From the NCBI GenBank assembly GCA_004321925.1, contig SCQH01000071.1, forward strand, positions 1 through 58,432: DNA of 58,432 nucleotides, written 5' to 3'. The DNA comes from Nitrospirota bacterium. Its GTDB lineage: Bacteria; Nitrospirota; Thermodesulfovibrionia; Thermodesulfovibrionales; UBA6898. Numbering within the stretch: the stretch's first letter is position 1; the number at the start of each line of letters is the position of its first letter. This document shows, in pieces, positions 17,201-37,693 of this stretch. The translations under genes and the position numbers were made by a program. Under the pieces are notes generated by a model, which worked only from the letters and a program-made list of their open reading frames with translations, made no database searches and was not told where the DNA came from.

Positions 17201-17287
17201 TGGTGCCGAAGGGGGGACTCGAACCCCCACAGCGTTTCCACCGCTAGAACCTGAATCTAGTGCGTCTGCCAATTCCGCCACTTCGGC
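17201..17287 (-). tRNA. tRNA-Leu (CAG)
   Basis: 87 bases including an encoded CCA. The acceptor stem GCCGAAG pairs with CTTCGGC, the discriminator is A, and the D-arm begins TGGCGGAATTGG. The anticodon stem CTAGA/TCTAG holds the loop TTCAGGT with anticodon CAG. A long class II variable arm (CGGTGGAAACGCTG region) and T-loop GTTCGAGTC are present. Confidence 0.97.
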
Positions 17288-17363: not shown

Positions 17364-18134
17364 CTACTTTTTATCGACTGCTTCTATGATCTTGTCTGCC
17401 TCAATATACCCGGGGACAAGCCTGCCGTCAGAAAAGATCAGGGCGGGTGTGCCAGAGATGCCGAGCTTTTCAGCAAGCTTCATGTTCTCATCAATGACCT
17501 TGGTCTCGCATTTAGGGTCAGGGATCGCCTTTTTGGCGAATACATCTTCAAGCATTGACAGAGACTTCTCACACATGATCGACTTTGCCTTCCTGGCCGC
17601 ATCCTTATGCATCGGAAGCGGATACAATATTATATAAAAAGCGATATCTTTTCTCTTTTCAAGAACCTTCTTCATCTCCTGATGAAGTTTTCCGCAGTAT
17701 GGTCAGTCGGGGTCGTCAAACACAACGACCTTGTGTTTGGCGTTCTTGTCTCCCATGACCAGGGCATTCTCCAGGGGGAGGGCCGAGAAATCGACCTTGT
17801 TGAGCTTGTCGTAGGTCAGCTGGGTATAGTTGAGCTTGGCCTCGATCCCGATGATGTTGCCTGCGATCAGGTTCTTCTTTGAGTAATCAATATAGACGAC
17901 ACCTTTTTTGGGGCCTGCCTCTATACTGATCTCCCAGAGGCCGCGTACCGGACCGTCCTGGACATTCAGGATCTTTGCATCCGGGATAACCTCCTTCAAT
18001 ACGTCCCTGGCCTGCTCTGCGTTGAGGGTATGGCACTTTGAACAATCCTGCTCACCTTTCGCAAAGGCAAAGACCTCACCGGCACCTGCGGCTACCAGGA
18101 CGATGGTCAGTGCTGATAATAGTAATTTTTTCAT
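17364..18134 (-). CDS. Predicted selenocysteine-containing DsbC/DsbG-like thiol:disulfide isomerase (UGA read as Sec)
   Basis: One continuous frame of 256 residues interrupted only by a UGA at 17703-17705. Upstream is a signal peptide (about 1-23), then CSKCH near residue 31 and a DsbC-N-like region (about 35-125). The frame runs through VVVFDDPD, the UGA, then PYCGKLH, exactly where DsbC proteins read DPDCPYCRKLH. The UGA thus replaces the nucleophilic first Cys, giving U-P-Y-C. Beyond it the thioredoxin fold continues with a second Cys pair (IMCEK and PKCET, as in DsbC) and the cis-Pro loop SGTPALIF. A 7-bp hairpin 15 bases after the UGA fits a bacterial SECIS. The role is periplasmic disulfide repair. 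Conventional calling gives two false genes (17703-18134 and 17364-17675). sel genes are not in the window. Confidence 0.85.
17670..17687 (-). promoter_or_regulatory. Putative bacterial SECIS hairpin
   Basis: On the minus strand, CTTCATC pairs perfectly with GATGAAG around the four-base loop AGGA. The stem begins 15 bases after the UGA at 17703-17705. Bacterial SECIS elements are short hairpins just downstream of the UGA with a G in the first positions of the apical loop; E. coli fdhF has an AGG-starting loop, as here. It lies wholly within coding sequence, as expected for SelB-dependent recoding. Confidence 0.75.
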
Positions 18135-18273: not shown

Positions 18274-19011
18274 ATGGAATTTTCGCAGGAAGAGCTCAGC
18301 AGATATAACCGTCAGATGATGATGGACGGGTGGGGCGAGGAAACCCAGAAGAAGATCAAGGCCTCAACGGTCTTCATTGCGGGAGCCGGCGGCCTCGGGT
18401 CCCCGGTCTCAATCTACCTCGCCGTTGCAGGCGTCGGCAGGATCAGGATATGTGATTTCGATTCCCCTGACTGGTCGAACCTGAACCGCCAGATACTGCA
18501 TAACCACAACCGTATCGGCACGAACAAGGCGGTCTCTGCAAAACAGACGCTTTCGGAGCTGAACCCCCATATCGAGATCGAAGCCTTCACCGACAAGATC
18601 GTTGCTGAAAATGTCGATGAACTGGTCGGCAACGCCGACCTTATCCTCGACTGTATGGATAATTTCCCGACCCGCTACCTCCTCAATGAATCAGCCATCA
18701 GAAAAAATATCCCGTTAGTGCATGGAAGCATCTGGGGGCTGGACGGTCGGATCACCTTCATCAAATCACCCGAGACACCCTGCCTCAGGTGTTATTTCCC
18801 TGAATCACCGCCTAAAGAGGTCTTTCCGGTCCTTGGCGCGACACCGGGTGTTATCGGTACGCTTCAGGCAATGGAGGCCTTAAAATATCTTTCGGGCATT
18901 GGAAAGCCGCTCAAGGGCAAACTGCTTGTCTGGTCAGGGAACGATATGAGCTTCAAGACATTCAGGGGATTCAAAGACCCCGACTGTCCAACCTGCGGAA
19001 CAAGATCCTAG
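18274..19011 (+). CDS. HesA/MoeB/ThiF-family adenylyltransferase
   Basis: 245 residues of the E1-like superfamily, which adenylates the C-terminus of ubiquitin-like sulfur carriers. Seen: nucleotide motif GAGGLGSP near residue 37, RQILHN, DCMDNFPTRYLLN, and two CxxC pairs (CLRC and CPTC) that bind zinc. The MoeB/ThiF catalytic Cys region (usually C-x-x-A-G-V) reads PVLGATPGV here, so the classic acceptor Cys is absent, as in a HesA-like subgroup. No sulfur carrier protein is adjacent. AAGGA upstream of the ATG supports the start. Confidence 0.85.
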   Translation: MEFSQEELSRYNRQMMMDGWGEETQKKIKASTVFIAGAGGLGSPVSIYLAVAGVGRIRICDFDSPDWSNLNRQILHNHNRIGTNKAVSAKQTLSELNPHIEIEAFTDKIVAENVDELVGNADLILDCMDNFPTRYLLNESAIRKNIPLVHGSIWGLDGRITFIKSPETPCLRCYFPESPPKEVFPVLGATPGVIGTLQAMEALKYLSGIGKPLKGKLLVWSGNDMSFKTFRGFKDPDCPTCGTRS

Positions 19012-27328: not shown

Positions 27329-29782
27329 GTGAATCTTTTACTGTATCAACGCCCATCCCGATACATAAACACCGAGATAAATTCAGTCCATAAAGAGGCA
27401 TCTGTCCGGGTGGCCCTTGCCTTTCCGGATGTCTACGAGATCGGGATGTCCCATCTCGGACTGAAGGTCCTCTACCGCATCATCAATGAACTTCCGGAGA
27501 CGGCAGCAGAAAGGGTCTTTTCCCCCTGGGTCGACCTTGACGATGCGATGAAGAGCGAGGGCAGCCTGCTTACCTCTCTGGAATCCGGCCTGCCGCTTAA
27601 GGACTTTGATATCGTCGGCTTCAGCCTGCAGTATGAGCTGGCCTACACCACGGTCCTTAATATGCTCGACCGCGGAGGCATACCCATCCGGTCAGAGGCG
27701 CGTCCTGACCTGAAGCGGCTTCCCCTGGTCATTGCCGGGGGGCCCAGCACGCTCAACCCCTTTCCGATGTCACCCTTTATCGATGCCTTTCTGATCGGTG
27801 ACGGAGAGGACGCGGTAAAGGAGATCATCTCTGCCTATACGATATGGAAAAAGGACGGAAAGTCCGACAAGACGACTCTGCTGAAGTCCCTCTCACGGAT
27901 AGAGGGAGTCTTTGTGCCCTCCCTTGGCAGGGGGCAGAAGGTCAGCCGCAGGATCATTGCCTCTCTTGAAGATGCACCGTTCCCCGACAACCCTATATTG
28001 CCCTTTGCAAACATCGTCCATGACAGGGTCAATATCGAGATATCACGCGGCTGCTCAATGGGCTGCAGATTCTGCCAGGCCGGCATGACCTACCGGCCGG
28101 TCAGGGAGCGATCGGTCGCAAAGATCCTGGAGCTTGCCGAGAGGTCCCTCCGGAACACCGGGTATGAGGACATCTCCTTTACGTCTCTGAGCTCAGGGGA
28201 TTACTCCTGCCTGCTTGAGCTGATGCAGGGTTTTAACCGGAAGTTCAGCCACAAAAGGATCGCGATGTCGCTGCCCTCCTTACGGGTCGGATCAGTGACC
28301 GGCGATATGCTCAGGGAGATCCGCTCTGTCAGAAAGACCGGTTTTACCATAGCACCCGAGGCAGGTACAGACAGGCTGCGCGCCGTCATCAACAAGGATT
28401 TTACTGAAGAGACCTACCAAAAGGCCCTGGAGACCCTCTTTAAGGCCGGCTGGCAGAACCTGAAGCTCTATTTCATGACCGGCCTCCCGACAGAGACGGA
28501 CGAGGACATCGACGCCATCCCTGAAATGGCCTACCAGGCCATCAGAATATCCAAGAAGCTTACCGGGAGGAATGTGACGATAAGCGCGGGCGTTTCTTCG
28601 TTCATCCCGAAACCGCATACTCCCTTTCAGTGGTTCGGCCAGAATGATATCGAGCTGCTGAGGGAAAAGAACACCTATCTCCGGAAGGCCTTCCTGAAAA
28701 AAGGGATCAAATTCAAAGGCCACCGGGAGGAGATGTCCCTGCTTGAGGCTGTCTTTTCCCGCGGTGACGAGACCCTGGCCCCGTTCATAGAGGCGGCCTG
28801 GTCGCTGGGCTGCAGACTGGATGCCTGGACAGAGCACTTTGACTTCGAAAAATGGAAGAAGGCCGCCGAGATATCAGGCGTCGATGCGTTTGCCTTTGCG
28901 GGAAGGAACTATGAGATGGATGCCGAATTCCCCTGGGACAACATCAGCACCGGGGTCACCAGAGAGTTCCTCTGGAGAGAATACCAGAACGCCCTCAAAG
29001 GGAGCTTCTCAACAGACTGCAGAAAACAGTGTCATGCCTGCGGCCTTGCCTGCAAAGAGAGCCCTGCGAATAAACCTGAACCCCAGGTGAACGGGGAGAT
29101 CCCGGCGGCCAGGCCAGGGAGTCCGTCCCCTGCTCTTCAGAATAATTTCATCCGTCTGAGGCTGCAGTATACCAAGACCGGCAGGCTGCGGTACCTTTCT
29201 CACCTGGAGCTCTCCACGGCCCTGACCCGCGCGATGAACCGTGCTGATTTCCCCTTAAGGTATTCAACCGGCTTTCATCCGGCCCCGAAGGTATCTTTCG
29301 GCCCGGCTCTGAGCGTCGGCATCGCCGGGACCACCGAATACCTGGATGTTGAGCTTGTCCCTCCCTTTGATGCCGGTGAAGGATTGCTGCGGATAAACCG
29401 GGAACTGCCTTCCGGGATCAGGGCGACCGGCATGGCCCGGCTCCGCGGCGGTGAAAAGTCCCTTAATAGTTTTATAATAAGATATGTGTACGAAGTAAGA
29501 AGCAGGGGAAAAATGTCTGCAGACCGCTTTCTCGAACAGGATGCGGTCTGGGTCCAGCGTGACAAGGGCCCCATAAATATCAAAGAAATGATCGAACTGC
29601 TCGAAAGGGTGGACGATATGACCTTCAGGGTGACGGTCAAAGAGAGCGGGGATATTAAGATGAGACTGTCGGAGATGGTGCCGGAGCTGTTCGGTCTGAA
29701 GGCTGTTGATTGTGAGATCACCAGGACCGGGATGTTCGGCTGGACAGGCAGATGGACAGACCCTCTGGAGGTATGCGGATAA
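27329..29782 (+). CDS. TIGR03960-type B12-binding radical SAM protein with DUF2344 tail
   Basis: 817 residues, GTG start at 27329. The N-terminal B12-binding-like domain (about 25-190) is followed by a radical SAM core with CSMGCRFC (Cx3Cx2C) near residue 245. A Cys-rich linker (CRKQCHACGLAC) lies near 565. The C-terminal DUF2344/TIGR03936 domain (about 610-817) begins RLRLQYTKTGRLRYLSHLE. This fused protein is common next to RNase G; its reaction is unknown, though an RNA-modification role has been suspected from context. Its stop overlaps the rng ATG (TAATG). Confidence 0.9.
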   Translation: MNLLLYQRPSRYINTEINSVHKEASVRVALAFPDVYEIGMSHLGLKVLYRIINELPETAAERVFSPWVDLDDAMKSEGSLLTSLESGLPLKDFDIVGFSLQYELAYTTVLNMLDRGGIPIRSEARPDLKRLPLVIAGGPSTLNPFPMSPFIDAFLIGDGEDAVKEIISAYTIWKKDGKSDKTTLLKSLSRIEGVFVPSLGRGQKVSRRIIASLEDAPFPDNPILPFANIVHDRVNIEISRGCSMGCRFCQAGMTYRPVRERSVAKILELAERSLRNTGYEDISFTSLSSGDYSCLLELMQGFNRKFSHKRIAMSLPSLRVGSVTGDMLREIRSVRKTGFTIAPEAGTDRLRAVINKDFTEETYQKALETLFKAGWQNLKLYFMTGLPTETDEDIDAIPEMAYQAIRISKKLTGRNVTISAGVSSFIPKPHTPFQWFGQNDIELLREKNTYLRKAFLKKGIKFKGHREEMSLLEAVFSRGDETLAPFIEAAWSLGCRLDAWTEHFDFEKWKKAAEISGVDAFAFAGRNYEMDAEFPWDNISTGVTREFLWREYQNALKGSFSTDCRKQCHACGLACKESPANKPEPQVNGEIPAARPGSPSPALQNNFIRLRLQYTKTGRLRYLSHLELSTALTRAMNRADFPLRYSTGFHPAPKVSFGPALSVGIAGTTEYLDVELVPPFDAGEGLLRINRELPSGIRATGMARLRGGEKSLNSFIIRYVYEVRSRGKMSADRFLEQDAVWVQRDKGPINIKEMIELLERVDDMTFRVTVKESGDIKMRLSEMVPELFGLKAVDCEITRTGMFGWTGRWTDPLEVCG

Positions 29783-31287
29783 TGGGCAGCGATATACTGA
29801 TAAATGTGACACGGGAAGAGACGAGGGTCGGGCTTCTTGAAGGCGGCCAGGTCGTCGAGTTCTATGTCGAGCGCAAGAGGGACGCAAGTCTTGTCGGCAA
29901 CATCTATAAGGGGAAGGTGGTCAAAATACTCCCCGGCATGCAGTCGGCCTTTGTCGATATCGGCCTCGAGAAGGCGGCCTTCTTGTATGTGGCTGACATA
30001 AAGGCCGACACGGATGAGTATGCCCCACTCTTCGAGGATGAGGAAAAAGAGACCTCGATAGAGATGATATCCCACAGGGGTCGTTCTGAAGCACCGATAG
30101 AAGACCTTATCCAGGAAGGACAGGAACTCCTGGTCCAGGTCTCGAAGGACCCCATCGGGAGCAAGGGCGCGCGCGTCACCTCCTATATAACCATGCCCGG
30201 AAGGTATCTGGTGCTTATGCCCGACGTAGAGCATATCGGCATTTCACGAAGGATATCGAACGAAGAGGAGCGGACCAGGCTCAAGAACATCGTGACGAGC
30301 ATTAAACCGGAGGGGTATGGCCTGATAATCAGGACCGCCAGCGAGGACTCCCCTGAGGAGGACCTCAAAAAGGACCTCGAATTCCTCCGCCTCCTCTGGA
30401 AGAACATCCACGAAAAAAGGGAGAAGGTGCCTGCCCGCGGCCTGCTCTACAGCGACCTGGACCTTGTCTTCAGGAGCGTCCGCGACCTTATGAGCCAGGA
30501 CGTCGAGCGGCTGATCATCGACTCTCCTGATGAATATGAGCGGATCATCGAATTTGTCACGACCTACTTCCCGAAGCTGCTGAACAAGATCGAGCTCTAT
30601 GAGGGCACCGAGCCGATATTTGACGCCTTTGGGATCGAGCTCGACATTACGCGGGCCATAGGCCGCAAGGTCTGGCTGAAGTCCGGCGGGTATATTGTCG
30701 TCGACCATACCGAGGCGATGACCGTCATTGACGTCAACACCGGGAAGTTCGTCGGCAAGGAGGGGCTCGAAGATACGATCCTGAAGACGAACCTTGAGGC
30801 GGTCAAGGAGATCTCCTACCAGATACGGCTCAGGAACCTCGGCGGGATCATCATCATCGACTTCATCGACATGGACAAACTGGAGAACCGTGAAAAGCTC
30901 TTCAATGCCTTTTCCGAGGCAATGAAGAAGGACAGGGCCAAAAACACCATCTTCCATGTCTCCGAGCTCGGCCTCATACAGATGACCAGAAAGCGGGTCA
31001 GGGAAAGCCTCGGCAGGACCCTGAGCACCACCTGCCCCTACTGTGAAGGCAAGGGCTTCGTCAAATCGCCCGAGACCCTCTGCTACGAAATATTACGGAC
31101 GATCAAGAAACTCGCCCGGCATGGCAGTGAAAAGATCATCATCACGGCCCATCCGATCGTTGCCGAAATGCTCTCTGACGAAGAGATGCTCGGGATCGAG
31201 GACGTTGAAAGCCAGTACGGCGTCAAGGTGATCATGCGGGCGGACAATAAGATGCACCAGGAAAACTATGAGGTGGCCTCCTTGTGA
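29782..31287 (+). CDS. rng: Ribonuclease G (Rne/Rng family)
   Basis: About 501 residues from ATG 29782, which gives the family start (MGSDILINVTREETRVGLLE) and has GGAGG ten bases upstream; earlier in-frame starts are less plausible. An S1 RNA-binding domain spans about 35-120; the catalytic RNase E/G core has DFIDMDKLENR, and the Zn-link CPYCEGKG sits near residue 422. It lacks the long C-terminal scaffold of RNase E. It matures 16S rRNA 5' ends and decays mRNA. A GTGA overlap couples it to larE. Confidence 0.93.
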   Translation: MGSDILINVTREETRVGLLEGGQVVEFYVERKRDASLVGNIYKGKVVKILPGMQSAFVDIGLEKAAFLYVADIKADTDEYAPLFEDEEKETSIEMISHRGRSEAPIEDLIQEGQELLVQVSKDPIGSKGARVTSYITMPGRYLVLMPDVEHIGISRRISNEEERTRLKNIVTSIKPEGYGLIIRTASEDSPEEDLKKDLEFLRLLWKNIHEKREKVPARGLLYSDLDLVFRSVRDLMSQDVERLIIDSPDEYERIIEFVTTYFPKLLNKIELYEGTEPIFDAFGIELDITRAIGRKVWLKSGGYIVVDHTEAMTVIDVNTGKFVGKEGLEDTILKTNLEAVKEISYQIRLRNLGGIIIIDFIDMDKLENREKLFNAFSEAMKKDRAKNTIFHVSELGLIQMTRKRVRESLGRTLSTTCPYCEGKGFVKSPETLCYEILRTIKKLARHGSEKIIITAHPIVAEMLSDEEMLGIEDVESQYGVKVIMRADNKMHQENYEVASL

Positions 31288-34087: not shown

Positions 34088-37000
34088 ATGCGCATCGATA
34101 AGATCGAACTCATAGGCTTCAAGTCCTTTGCGGACAGGACCGCCTTTAACCTCCATTCAGGCATCACCTGTATCGTCGGCCCCAACGGCTGCGGCAAGAG
34201 CAACATTGTCGATGCCTTCAGGTGGGTGCTCGGCGAGCAGAGCGCCAAGAGCCTCAGGGGAGAGAAGATGGAAGAGGTCATCTTCAACGGCTCGTCCCTG
34301 AAGAAACAAAAAGGCATGGCAGAGGTTACCATGGTCATGTCCGGGATGACCGGGGCCCTGCAGCCTGCTGCCCGGGAAAATGTCCCCGCAGGCGAGCAGG
34401 ACGATGCCACGGCAGGGGACCAGGGCAATGGCAACGGAGACAACCGCCAACCCAGCCTGGGCCTGAACCTGGCCAGCGGCGAGACCCTGTCCGTCACCCG
34501 GCGGCTCTACCGTTCAGGTGAAAGCGAATACATGATCAACAGGACCCCCTGCAGGCTCAAGGACATCAGGGACATCTTCCTTGATACCGGGCTTGATTTC
34601 CGGAGCTATTCGATCCTTGAACAGGGCAGGATCAGCCAGATCCTGAACTCAAAACCGACCGAACGCCGCTTCATCATCGAAGAGGTCGCCGGGGTGATGA
34701 AATACAAGGTCAGGAAGGCCGAGGCCCTCTCGAAGCTCGAGTCATCACGCCTGAACCTCCTGCGGATAAACGACATCGTCACCGAGGTCAAAAAACAGAT
34801 CAATATCCTCGACCGGCTCGCCAAAAAGGCGGAGCGGTACAAGAGACTCTCCTCAGAGATGCATGCCATCGAGCTCAAGATCGAGCGGAAGGAATATCAG
34901 GACCTCCGGGATGAGAACGAGAAGATCAACGGGGAGTATACCCTCCTGAGGGAGAACGAGGCTGTGCTGTCTGCCGAGATAACCGGCGCCGAGAACAGGA
35001 CCGAGACCAGAAGGCTCGAACTGATCGAGAGGGAAAAGGCGCTTGAGATCATCCAGAAGAACCTCCAGCTTATGGAGAGGGAGATAGCTGAGATCGAGCG
35101 TACCATCGCCGTCAGCAGGAATGACGTGACGAACCTCGGCGACTACAAGACAAAGCTCCTGGTCCAGGAAGAGGAGAATGACGCGCGCGTCCTGGAGATC
35201 ACTGCACGCTGCGGGGAACTGCAGGCAGAGGGCCAGCGCATCTCCGGAGAGATGGAACAGCATGCCGAACAGCTCCGGCTCAAGACAGAGGCCTTCAGGG
35301 CCGGGGAAGAGGAGCTGGCCGAAAAAGAAGAAGGCCTGGAGGAAAAAAGGCGCGATATCTTCAGGGTCACGGAAGAGATCAGCAGGCTGCGCAATGAGCT
35401 GAGCCGCCAGCAGTCGGCCTTTGAGTCCCTTGAACGGAGGGATGCAGCTGCCCAGCGCGAGTCTGAGGACTCCCGGAAGGTCCTTGAAGGTGTTGAGGCC
35501 TCGATCAACAACGTCGAGTCTGTGATCATGGGCAACAGCAACGAGAAGCTGCTGATGCATGAGAAGAAGACGGTCCTCGCAGAGGAGCTCTCCATTGGCA
35601 AAAGCCAGCTCGAAGAACTTCTGAGGAACCTGGCCGATCAGCGGGAAGACCTCGCTTCAAGCCAGTCCAGGCTTGAGTCCCTCAAAGAACTGGTCTTTGA
35701 CAAACCAACCAGGGACCTGATCTCTTCCCGGTCTGATATAAAGCTGCTGGGGTCGCTTTCGGACGTCGTCGAGGTCGATGCCCGGTATGAAAAGGCTGTC
35801 GAGTCGGCCCTGTCCGAAAAGGCTGATATGCTCATCCTTGAGTCGGCCGAGGCTGTGGAGCATGCAGTCGTCTCCCTCAGGGGTGCCGGATCCAGCAGGA
35901 CCGCCTTTATGGCCCAGGTCCCGCCAGCCACCTCGTATCCGGCTGAACTGCCTGCCGGGGTCATCGGACGGGCGATCGATTTTGTAAGGGTCAGGGAAGG
36001 GTATTCCCAGGTCGCCGGGAACATATTGAACAACATCCTGATCACTCAGGACATACATTCGGCCTTTGAGGGCCTTCAGTCCACCTCCGGCAGATATACC
36101 TTTGTCACGGTGGATGGAGAGGTGCTTGAACCCTCTGGTGCGGTCATCATCGGAGAGGGCAAGGGCATATTCCGCAGGAAGCGGGAGATCCGGGAGCTGG
36201 ATGAGCTTATAGAGGCTAAAAAGGCAGGCATTGCCTCCCTGAACGACAGGATCCAGGACCTTCAAAGCGGGATCGCAGAAAAGGAAGAGATCATCAGGGC
36301 CGTCGAGTCCTCCATCAATAATCTTGAAAAGGAGATATCCCTTTCAAAGCTGACCGTTCAGAATTATTCCGAGGAAAAGGAACGGACAAGCAGAAAGCTC
36401 TCCTACCTCACCCTTGAGATGGAAGAGGCCGCCAGGGAAAAGGAAATGCTTACCGGGGTCCTTGCCGAGACCAACAGGACGCTGCAGGAGATCGAGGCCA
36501 GAAAGGCGGCGATCGAAGCCGACGCAGCGCAGATCCAGGAGGAGATAGCCGGCAGAAAGTCCCTGATCGAGGAGCACCGGGCAGAAGTGACCGATCTGAG
36601 GCTCCTGACCGCCTCGAACCGGGAAAAGGTCGAGGCGATCCGGAAGGAGATCGATTCGTCCCAGCGCACGATCGCGGAGATCGGGCGCAAAAAGACGGAG
36701 CTCATTGCCGAGAGGGACTCCCTTGACCAGAAGATCCGGGGGCGTGAGGCCGAGATCCTCGAGCACGAGACAAAGCTCAGGAAGGCGATCGCCGACGCCG
36801 ATGTCCTTCGCATCGAGATCGGCGGCAAGAAAGAGAATATAGAAAAAGAGAACGAAGAACTGATAGCCATCGAGCACGGGCTCAGGGACCTGCGTCAGCA
36901 GCTTTCCTCAGTCGTCCACCGGATCTCGGACCTTGACGTGCAGAAGGCCGAGCACAAGATGCGGATCGAGAATATCGCCCTGCAGGTCAAGAATAATTAC

Positions 37001-37693
37001 GGTGTTGAGATCGATACCCTTGAACTGGAGGAAATAACCCCGGAGGAGCAGGAAAAGCTTGCCGACCTGAGGGCCAAGATCCAGGAGATGGGAGCGGTGA
37101 ACCTCGGGACGCTCGAAGAGTACGAAGAGCTCAGAACGAGATATGAATTCATGTCCAGGCAGCAGGAAGACCTCAGCAAGTCCATTGCCGAGCTCGAAGA
37201 GGCGATCTCCAAGATAAACAGCACGACGCGGAAGAAGCTCAGGGATGCCTTTGAGATGCTCAACTCCAAATTCGGCGAGGTCTTTGTCACCCTTTTCGGG
37301 GGAGGCAGGGCCGAGCTCGTCCTGACCGACGAAAGCAATATCCTTGAGACCGGCATCGAGATCGTGGCGCAGCCACCCGGCAAAAAGATCCAGAACATCC
37401 ACCTGCTCTCGGGCGGTGAACAGGCGCTGACCGCCCTGTCGCTCCAGTTCGGCGGCTTTCTCATCAAACCGACACCCCTCTGCATCCTCGATGAAGCGGA
37501 CGCCCCGCTCGATGAGTCGAACACGGAGCGTTATTCAAAGATGCTGCATAACCTCTCACAGGAGACCCAGTTCATTGTCGTCACGCATAACCGCACGACC
37601 ATGAGCGTTGCCCAGCACCTCTACGGCATTACGATGCAGGAGGCCGGCGTTTCAAAGGTCATCTCGATGCAGCTTGAAGACGTCCCGGCATAA
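34088..37693 (+). CDS. smc: Chromosome segregation SMC protein
   Basis: 1201 residues. Walker A GPNGCGKSN near residue 32, long coiled coils (about 170-500 and 660-1010), hinge about 510-660, ABC signature LLSGGEQALTALSLQ and Walker B CILDEADAPLDESN at the C-terminal head. The Walker B and signature vary slightly from the usual (LSGGEKAL, DEVDAALDD). Residues about 94-125 form a low-complexity Gly/Asn/Asp/Gln-rich insertion in the N-terminal head (ENVPAGEQDDATAGDQGNGN), just before the LSVTRRLYRSGESEYMIN block. Scp partners are elsewhere. Confidence 0.95.
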   Translation: MRIDKIELIGFKSFADRTAFNLHSGITCIVGPNGCGKSNIVDAFRWVLGEQSAKSLRGEKMEEVIFNGSSLKKQKGMAEVTMVMSGMTGALQPAARENVPAGEQDDATAGDQGNGNGDNRQPSLGLNLASGETLSVTRRLYRSGESEYMINRTPCRLKDIRDIFLDTGLDFRSYSILEQGRISQILNSKPTERRFIIEEVAGVMKYKVRKAEALSKLESSRLNLLRINDIVTEVKKQINILDRLAKKAERYKRLSSEMHAIELKIERKEYQDLRDENEKINGEYTLLRENEAVLSAEITGAENRTETRRLELIEREKALEIIQKNLQLMEREIAEIERTIAVSRNDVTNLGDYKTKLLVQEEENDARVLEITARCGELQAEGQRISGEMEQHAEQLRLKTEAFRAGEEELAEKEEGLEEKRRDIFRVTEEISRLRNELSRQQSAFESLERRDAAAQRESEDSRKVLEGVEASINNVESVIMGNSNEKLLMHEKKTVLAEELSIGKSQLEELLRNLADQREDLASSQSRLESLKELVFDKPTRDLISSRSDIKLLGSLSDVVEVDARYEKAVESALSEKADMLILESAEAVEHAVVSLRGAGSSRTAFMAQVPPATSYPAELPAGVIGRAIDFVRVREGYSQVAGNILNNILITQDIHSAFEGLQSTSGRYTFVTVDGEVLEPSGAVIIGEGKGIFRRKREIRELDELIEAKKAGIASLNDRIQDLQSGIAEKEEIIRAVESSINNLEKEISLSKLTVQNYSEEKERTSRKLSYLTLEMEEAAREKEMLTGVLAETNRTLQEIEARKAAIEADAAQIQEEIAGRKSLIEEHRAEVTDLRLLTASNREKVEAIRKEIDSSQRTIAEIGRKKTELIAERDSLDQKIRGREAEILEHETKLRKAIADADVLRIEIGGKKENIEKENEELIAIEHGLRDLRQQLSSVVHRISDLDVQKAEHKMRIENIALQVKNNYGVEIDTLELEEITPEEQEKLADLRAKIQEMGAVNLGTLEEYEELRTRYEFMSRQQEDLSKSIAELEEAISKINSTTRKKLRDAFEMLNSKFGEVFVTLFGGGRAELVLTDESNILETGIEIVAQPPGKKIQNIHLLSGGEQALTALSLQFGGFLIKPTPLCILDEADAPLDESNTERYSKMLHNLSQETQFIVVTHNRTTMSVAQHLYGITMQEAGVSKVISMQLEDVPA

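Follow-up and report, generated by a model that had tools for sequence, protein, structure and literature searches.

A gene of the DsbC family in a Nitrospirota genome raises the question of whether an in-frame UGA codon encodes selenocysteine (Sec). The gene, referred to here as sec-dsbC, occurs on the minus strand of the analyzed stretch of DNA (the window; 58,432 nucleotides in full), where its coding region (17364..18134) consists of 256 codons and a TAA stop. It has a single in-frame UGA, which is codon 144 (17703..17705, minus strand). Sequence comparisons indicate that sec-dsbC is almost certainly a functional selenoprotein gene, in which the UGA specifies selenocysteine in place of the first Cys of a DsbC-type CPYC motif.

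Reading frame and domains of the sec-dsbC product

When the TGA is read through, sec-dsbC forms one frame of 256 amino acids, with the UGA in the context VVVFDDPD-U-PYCGKLHQEMKK. The UGA opens the CPYC motif, which here reads U-PYC, and it aligns with the first, nucleophilic Cys of the CGYC motif in DsbC structures. In comparisons with relatives, the pN/pS value downstream of the UGA is 0.15-0.28, which does not exceed the upstream value. These results bear out the initial annotation, which had proposed that the frame is intact on both sides of the UGA and that the UGA falls on the nucleophilic Cys of DsbC. The annotation also anticipated that ordinary gene callers would report two false short proteins, and the standard code indeed gives ORFs of 143 (17703-18134) and 103 (17364-17675) amino acids.

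A tRNA-Leu gene (17201-17287) is located downstream of sec-dsbC on the same, minus strand, and a ThiF/MoeB-like gene (18274-19011; named by eye) is upstream in divergent orientation. Elsewhere in the window, candidates for TGA read-through at 34855, 36346, 36910 and 30246 (minus strand) were rejected as shadow frames lying opposite long plus-strand genes, namely an SMC-like gene (34088-37693) and a ribonuclease-like gene (29752-31287).

The predicted protein starts with a probable Sec-pathway signal peptide (residues 1-23; 18066..18134, minus strand), whose cleavage after VFA was assigned by eye, and a hydrophobic N-terminal helix covers residues 2-16 of the predicted model. A DsbC_N dimerization-type domain (PF10411, 35.8 bits, cut-off 25) corresponds to residues 39-104 (17823..18020, minus strand) and was found in 63 of 64 relatives. 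The catalytic thioredoxin-like domain (residues 130-251; 17382..17747, minus strand) gives the best Pfam match of the product, which is to PF13098 (Thioredoxin_2; 82.6 bits, cut-off 27). This domain contains the UPYC motif, a GTP cis-Pro signature and the pair Cys188/Cys209. Residue 144, Cys188, Cys209 and Pro230 are invariant among the 64 relatives, while Cys147 and Thr229 are nearly so.

Among solved structures, the closest in sequence are those of E. coli DsbC (1eej, 1.9e-20) and Salmonella DsbC, with E-values of 1.9e-20 and weaker. E. coli DsbC and the sec-dsbC product have in common the DsbC_N and thioredoxin domains, the resolving Cys of CxxC, the TP cis-Pro and the structural Cys pair. 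However, their identity is roughly 27%, and E. coli DsbC has its nucleophilic Cys where sec-dsbC has Sec. An AlphaFold model made with the 64 relatives has a mean pLDDT of 92.8, and its top Foldseek matches are DsbC structures. Whole-chain TM values are about 0.5-0.6 with high rmsd, and the catalytic domain alone reaches 0.8 (3gv1); a different angle between the two domains could account for the low whole-chain values. Given that the match to the NCBI DsbC equivalog NF008129 (88.2 bits) is below its cut-off of 215, we assign the protein to the DsbC family, and not to the DsbC equivalog.

Exchange of UGA and Cys codons and the hairpin downstream

We collected homologs from 60 relatives, with further stretches of DNA, and from a scan of GTDB genomes, obtaining 143 gene copies, of which 121 are distinct. 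The critical codon in the distinct homologs is TGA (74), TGC (26) or TGT (21), and nothing else. An exchange of U and C at this codon, which the initial annotation suggested as a check, is thus observed (74 TGA versus 47 TGC/TGT), and none of the outcomes that the annotation named as refuting its reading came up. The 74 Sec-type sequences are nearly all from Nitrospirota.

On a quick maximum-likelihood tree, the state changed between U and C at least 14 times, and 7 of these changes are forced by well-supported branches. The clearest change is at a syntenic locus within one genus, with Sec in two of its species and Cys in another: the codon is TGA in the source genome (locus L018) and in genome G004 (L019), versus TGT in G003 (L020). 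In all three, dsbC adjoins the same ThiF/MoeB gene, which is followed by an lnt-like gene. Genomes G001-G003 carry a Cys-type gene, yet they keep both selA and selB, so their Cys does not result from loss of the machinery. A different family of the phylum (f19) yielded 14 copies, each of them uninterrupted, and 11 of those genomes have selA above the cut-off. One further variant (L159, genome G031) reads UPFS: the UGA and the SECIS are retained, and the resolving Cys is replaced by Ser.

A Sec copy occurs beside a Cys copy in three genomes, namely G008 (L107), G014 (L043/L144) and G024 (L063/L103). A Sec-DsbC sequence from a bin labeled Syntrophaceae (L096) clusters within the Nitrospirota sequences, which could reflect either lateral transfer or a mis-binned contig.

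A hairpin of 7 base pairs, CUUCAUC-AGGA-GAUGAAG (17670..17687, minus strand), starts 15 nucleotides past the UGA of sec-dsbC. Its loop, AGGA, has 4 nucleotides, and the spacing from the UGA to the loop is 22 nucleotides. Published rules for bacterial SECIS elements specify a loop of 3-9 nucleotides, a stem of 4-16 base pairs, a G at position 1 or 2 of the loop, a distance of 16-37 nucleotides from the UGA to the loop and an energy of at most -7.5 kcal/mol (PMC13188914). We applied these rules to the sec-dsbC hairpins by script, and the hairpin agrees with them in loop size, stem, G position, spacing and energy. The SECIS-like hairpin noted initially downstream of the UGA therefore passes a SECIS check based on published rules. 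Rfam gave no credible match at the hairpin, with the gathering score reached only by the downstream tRNA.

The hairpin is kept in UGA genes. All seven pairs (CUUCAUC-NGNN-GAUGAAG) are present in 74/74 UGA genes versus 1/47 Cys genes. Every one of the UGA genes also has G as its second loop base and a hairpin segment with an energy at or below -7.5 kcal/mol. For the 30-nucleotide hairpin stretch, the folding energy is -8.2 kcal/mol in UGA genes versus -2.4 kcal/mol in Cys genes (p ~3e-21, with sequences treated as independent). With sequences again treated as independent, the choice of synonymous codon at +5 to +12 is frozen in UGA genes (AAA for Lys+5 in 65/65, CTT for Leu+6 in 74/74 and AAG for Lys+11 in 74/74), but mostly free in Cys genes. 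Given the 74 versus 1 distribution and the many U/C changes on the tree, ancestry alone cannot explain the pairing of hairpin and UGA. We conclude that the hairpin is real, far beyond chance.

The one Cys gene in which the hairpin is complete (L037; coding region 1444-2220) has TGT and the exact SECIS sequence CTTCATCAGGAGATGAAG, and it groups with UGA genes in a well-supported clade of the quick maximum-likelihood tree. This gene probably underwent a recent change from Sec to Cys and carries a fossil SECIS.

A gene that is intact except for one in-frame stop, and that comes from a draft assembly (3.2 Mb, 120 contigs), is also what a nonsense mutation or base-call error in a Cys-type dsbC would produce. 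However, the TGA occurs at the same codon in 74 distinct relatives from many assemblies, purifying selection behind the UGA is as strong as before it, and the hairpin is retained together with TGA and not with Cys codons. The cross-species conservation already refutes an explanation by pseudogene or sequencing error, to which we assign a vanishingly small probability.

Another alternative is that the UGA is a true stop, and that the N-terminal and thioredoxin domains are made separately, the latter from an ATG at 17675, where the 103-amino-acid ORF starts mechanically. This ATG sits within the hairpin and past the active site, such that the second protein would have neither UPYC nor the first strand of the thioredoxin fold. 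Conservation between the UGA and this ATG is at the level of the remaining protein. Moreover, GTG replaces this ATG in two UGA genes out of 74 (L039 and L119), as part of a change in which a T-A pair of the hairpin became C-G through substitutions on both sides. This compensatory change converts Met to Val, i.e., the RNA pair is preserved at the expense of the amino acid. A split gene is thus scarcely credible, and we retain the reading of sec-dsbC as one gene with an internal Sec codon.

Selenocysteine machinery in the source genome and its relatives

The initial annotation named selA, selB, selC and selD as genes to look for, and all four are present in the source assembly. We found selA (613 bits), selB (388 bits), selD (359 bits) and a tRNA-Sec (70.6 bits) with anticodon TCA (UCA); selA is close to selB. 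The selD gene itself (L048, G000:C74:2376-3302) has an in-frame TGA, in the context SSCAG-U-AAK, with a strong hairpin downstream. This site agrees with the UxxK motif listed for Sec-containing SelD (PMC13188914). A second gene that, by its sequence, already appears to use UGA as Sec provides strong genomic context for sec-dsbC.

The conservation on both sides of the UGA makes it clear that read-through as such occurs, which would also accommodate decoding as a different residue, e.g., through a suppressor or an altered code that would give Trp or Cys. However, TGA terminates 16 of the 41 long frames in the window, so the meaning of UGA has not changed globally. The alternative residue in relatives is always Cys and never Trp, the source genome has selA, selB and a tRNA-Sec that has the UCA anticodon, and the hairpin conforms to SECIS rules (PMC13188914). 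Decoding as a residue other than Sec is therefore highly improbable, and insertion of selenocysteine remains the preferred reading.

In two genomes (G014 and G057), the UGA copies keep their hairpin intact and a tRNA-Sec of about 71 bits is present, but selA and selB were not above the cut-off in their assemblies. Given that selA is close to selB in the source genome, a single missing contig could explain both absences, and incomplete bins are the likeliest cause. In genome G009, we found neither a dsbC-type gene nor Sec machinery.

Relationship to known selenoproteins and predicted function

The selenoprotein family called “thiol:disulfide interchange protein” reportedly goes back to a founding paper by Kryukov and Gladyshev in 2004. 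A survey in 2006 counted three such Sec sequences, from Syntrophus aciditrophicus and two Geobacter species (PMC1794560), and an entry of this name also appears in further work (PMC9312934). The inventory of prokaryotic selenoproteins published in 2026 lists it with PF13098, the motif UxxC and the sequence WP_011366075.1 (PMC13188914, Table 1). As matched by description, sec-dsbC shares with this family PF13098, UxxC, a single Sec and a predicted role in thiol:disulfide exchange. On these sequence features, sec-dsbC fits the known entry and would belong to it. However, the organisms listed for the family are Deltaproteobacteria, with three sequences, while the much larger set found here is almost entirely from Nitrospirota.

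The initial annotation compared the gene with other selenoproteins of the thioredoxin fold. “DsbG-like” selenoproteins (NF041057, the Rcas_1661 family) share this fold and UxxC with the sec-dsbC product, but the NF041057 model does not match the product at an E-value of 0.01, and among the 64 relatives it gives a single, weak match. This comparison is thus not the best one, and the PF13098 UxxC entry fits. DsbA proteins lack DsbC_N, and PF01323 matches the sec-dsbC product only over a short C-terminal stretch (residues 211-249). The DsbA-like selenoproteins (PF01323; PMC1088965) likewise have the thioredoxin fold and UxxC in common with it.

We propose the following mechanism. The hairpin, which lies shortly after the UGA, would recruit SelB loaded with Sec-tRNA(Sec) to a ribosome arriving at this codon, and selenocysteine would be inserted. 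The product would probably be exported to the periplasm and would be expected to dimerize through DsbC_N. Its selenolate would then attack wrong disulfides, such that the protein may act as a thiol:disulfide isomerase or reductase, and Cys147 would resolve the mixed selenosulfide. A membrane protein of the CcdA/DsbD type is the presumed electron donor that would re-reduce the active site. The source genome has one gene for a CcdA-type membrane protein. A second DsbD_TM match (L165) is not within a convincing CcdA gene and was rejected as CcdA.

Within this scheme, we infer that the sec-dsbC product has disulfide isomerase activity. The Sec residue may bring a kinetic gain, as the initial annotation proposed, or a greater resistance to oxidation. 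The source genome also contains three Cys-type paralogs that could perform the work of an isomerase, which counts against such a role for the Sec copy.

Close to its predicted mature N-terminus, the protein has a motif, CSKCH (residues 31-35; 18030..18044, minus strand), that falls outside the region aligned to E. coli DsbC. The pattern CxxCH is the signature for attachment of heme c. Among 64 aligned relatives, CxxCH is present in 55, CxxC without His in 1, and the unit is absent in 8; it is kept in Sec forms, Cys forms and Deltaproteobacteria. From the sequence pattern, CSKCH is possibly a heme c signature, a metal site or a second dithiol. A bolder idea is that the Sec site is coupled to a CxxCH that carries covalent heme c, or else a metal, or acts as a second dithiol; this would connect the exchange of disulfides in the periplasm with the pool of cytochromes. 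We consider this idea quite doubtful.

The same motif bears on the question of function. The protein might be mainly a reductase for maturation of c-type cytochromes or for another partner, and not a general isomerase, a proposal that shares the Sec reading of the UGA. It is consistent with CxxCH in most members, with the CcdA-type gene and the five Cytochrom_C_asm loci in the source genome, and with the description of Dsb-family proteins as CcmG-type reductases, as in Helicobacter pylori HP0377 (PMC4491210). However, we saw no cytochrome maturation gene adjoining sec-dsbC, and the DsbC_N dimerization-type domain is typical of isomerases. A function mainly as a reductase is therefore possible, if rather unlikely.

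We found no report of Sec-DsbC in Nitrospirota in a search of literature mostly outside subscription journals. As far as this literature goes, the spread of Sec-DsbC in this order of Nitrospirota, the rich record of switching between Sec and Cys, and the conserved N-terminal CxxCH are new. The 74 distinct sequences would be a large addition to a selenoprotein family that was counted at three in 2006. For annotation, the consequence is that standard gene callers split or truncate all such genes. Closely related genes swap a catalytic Sec for Cys or the reverse, in one genus even at a single syntenic locus, which amounts to a natural experiment. The SECIS, in turn, dictates the protein stretch LHQEMKK, a case in which an RNA structure constrains an enzyme.
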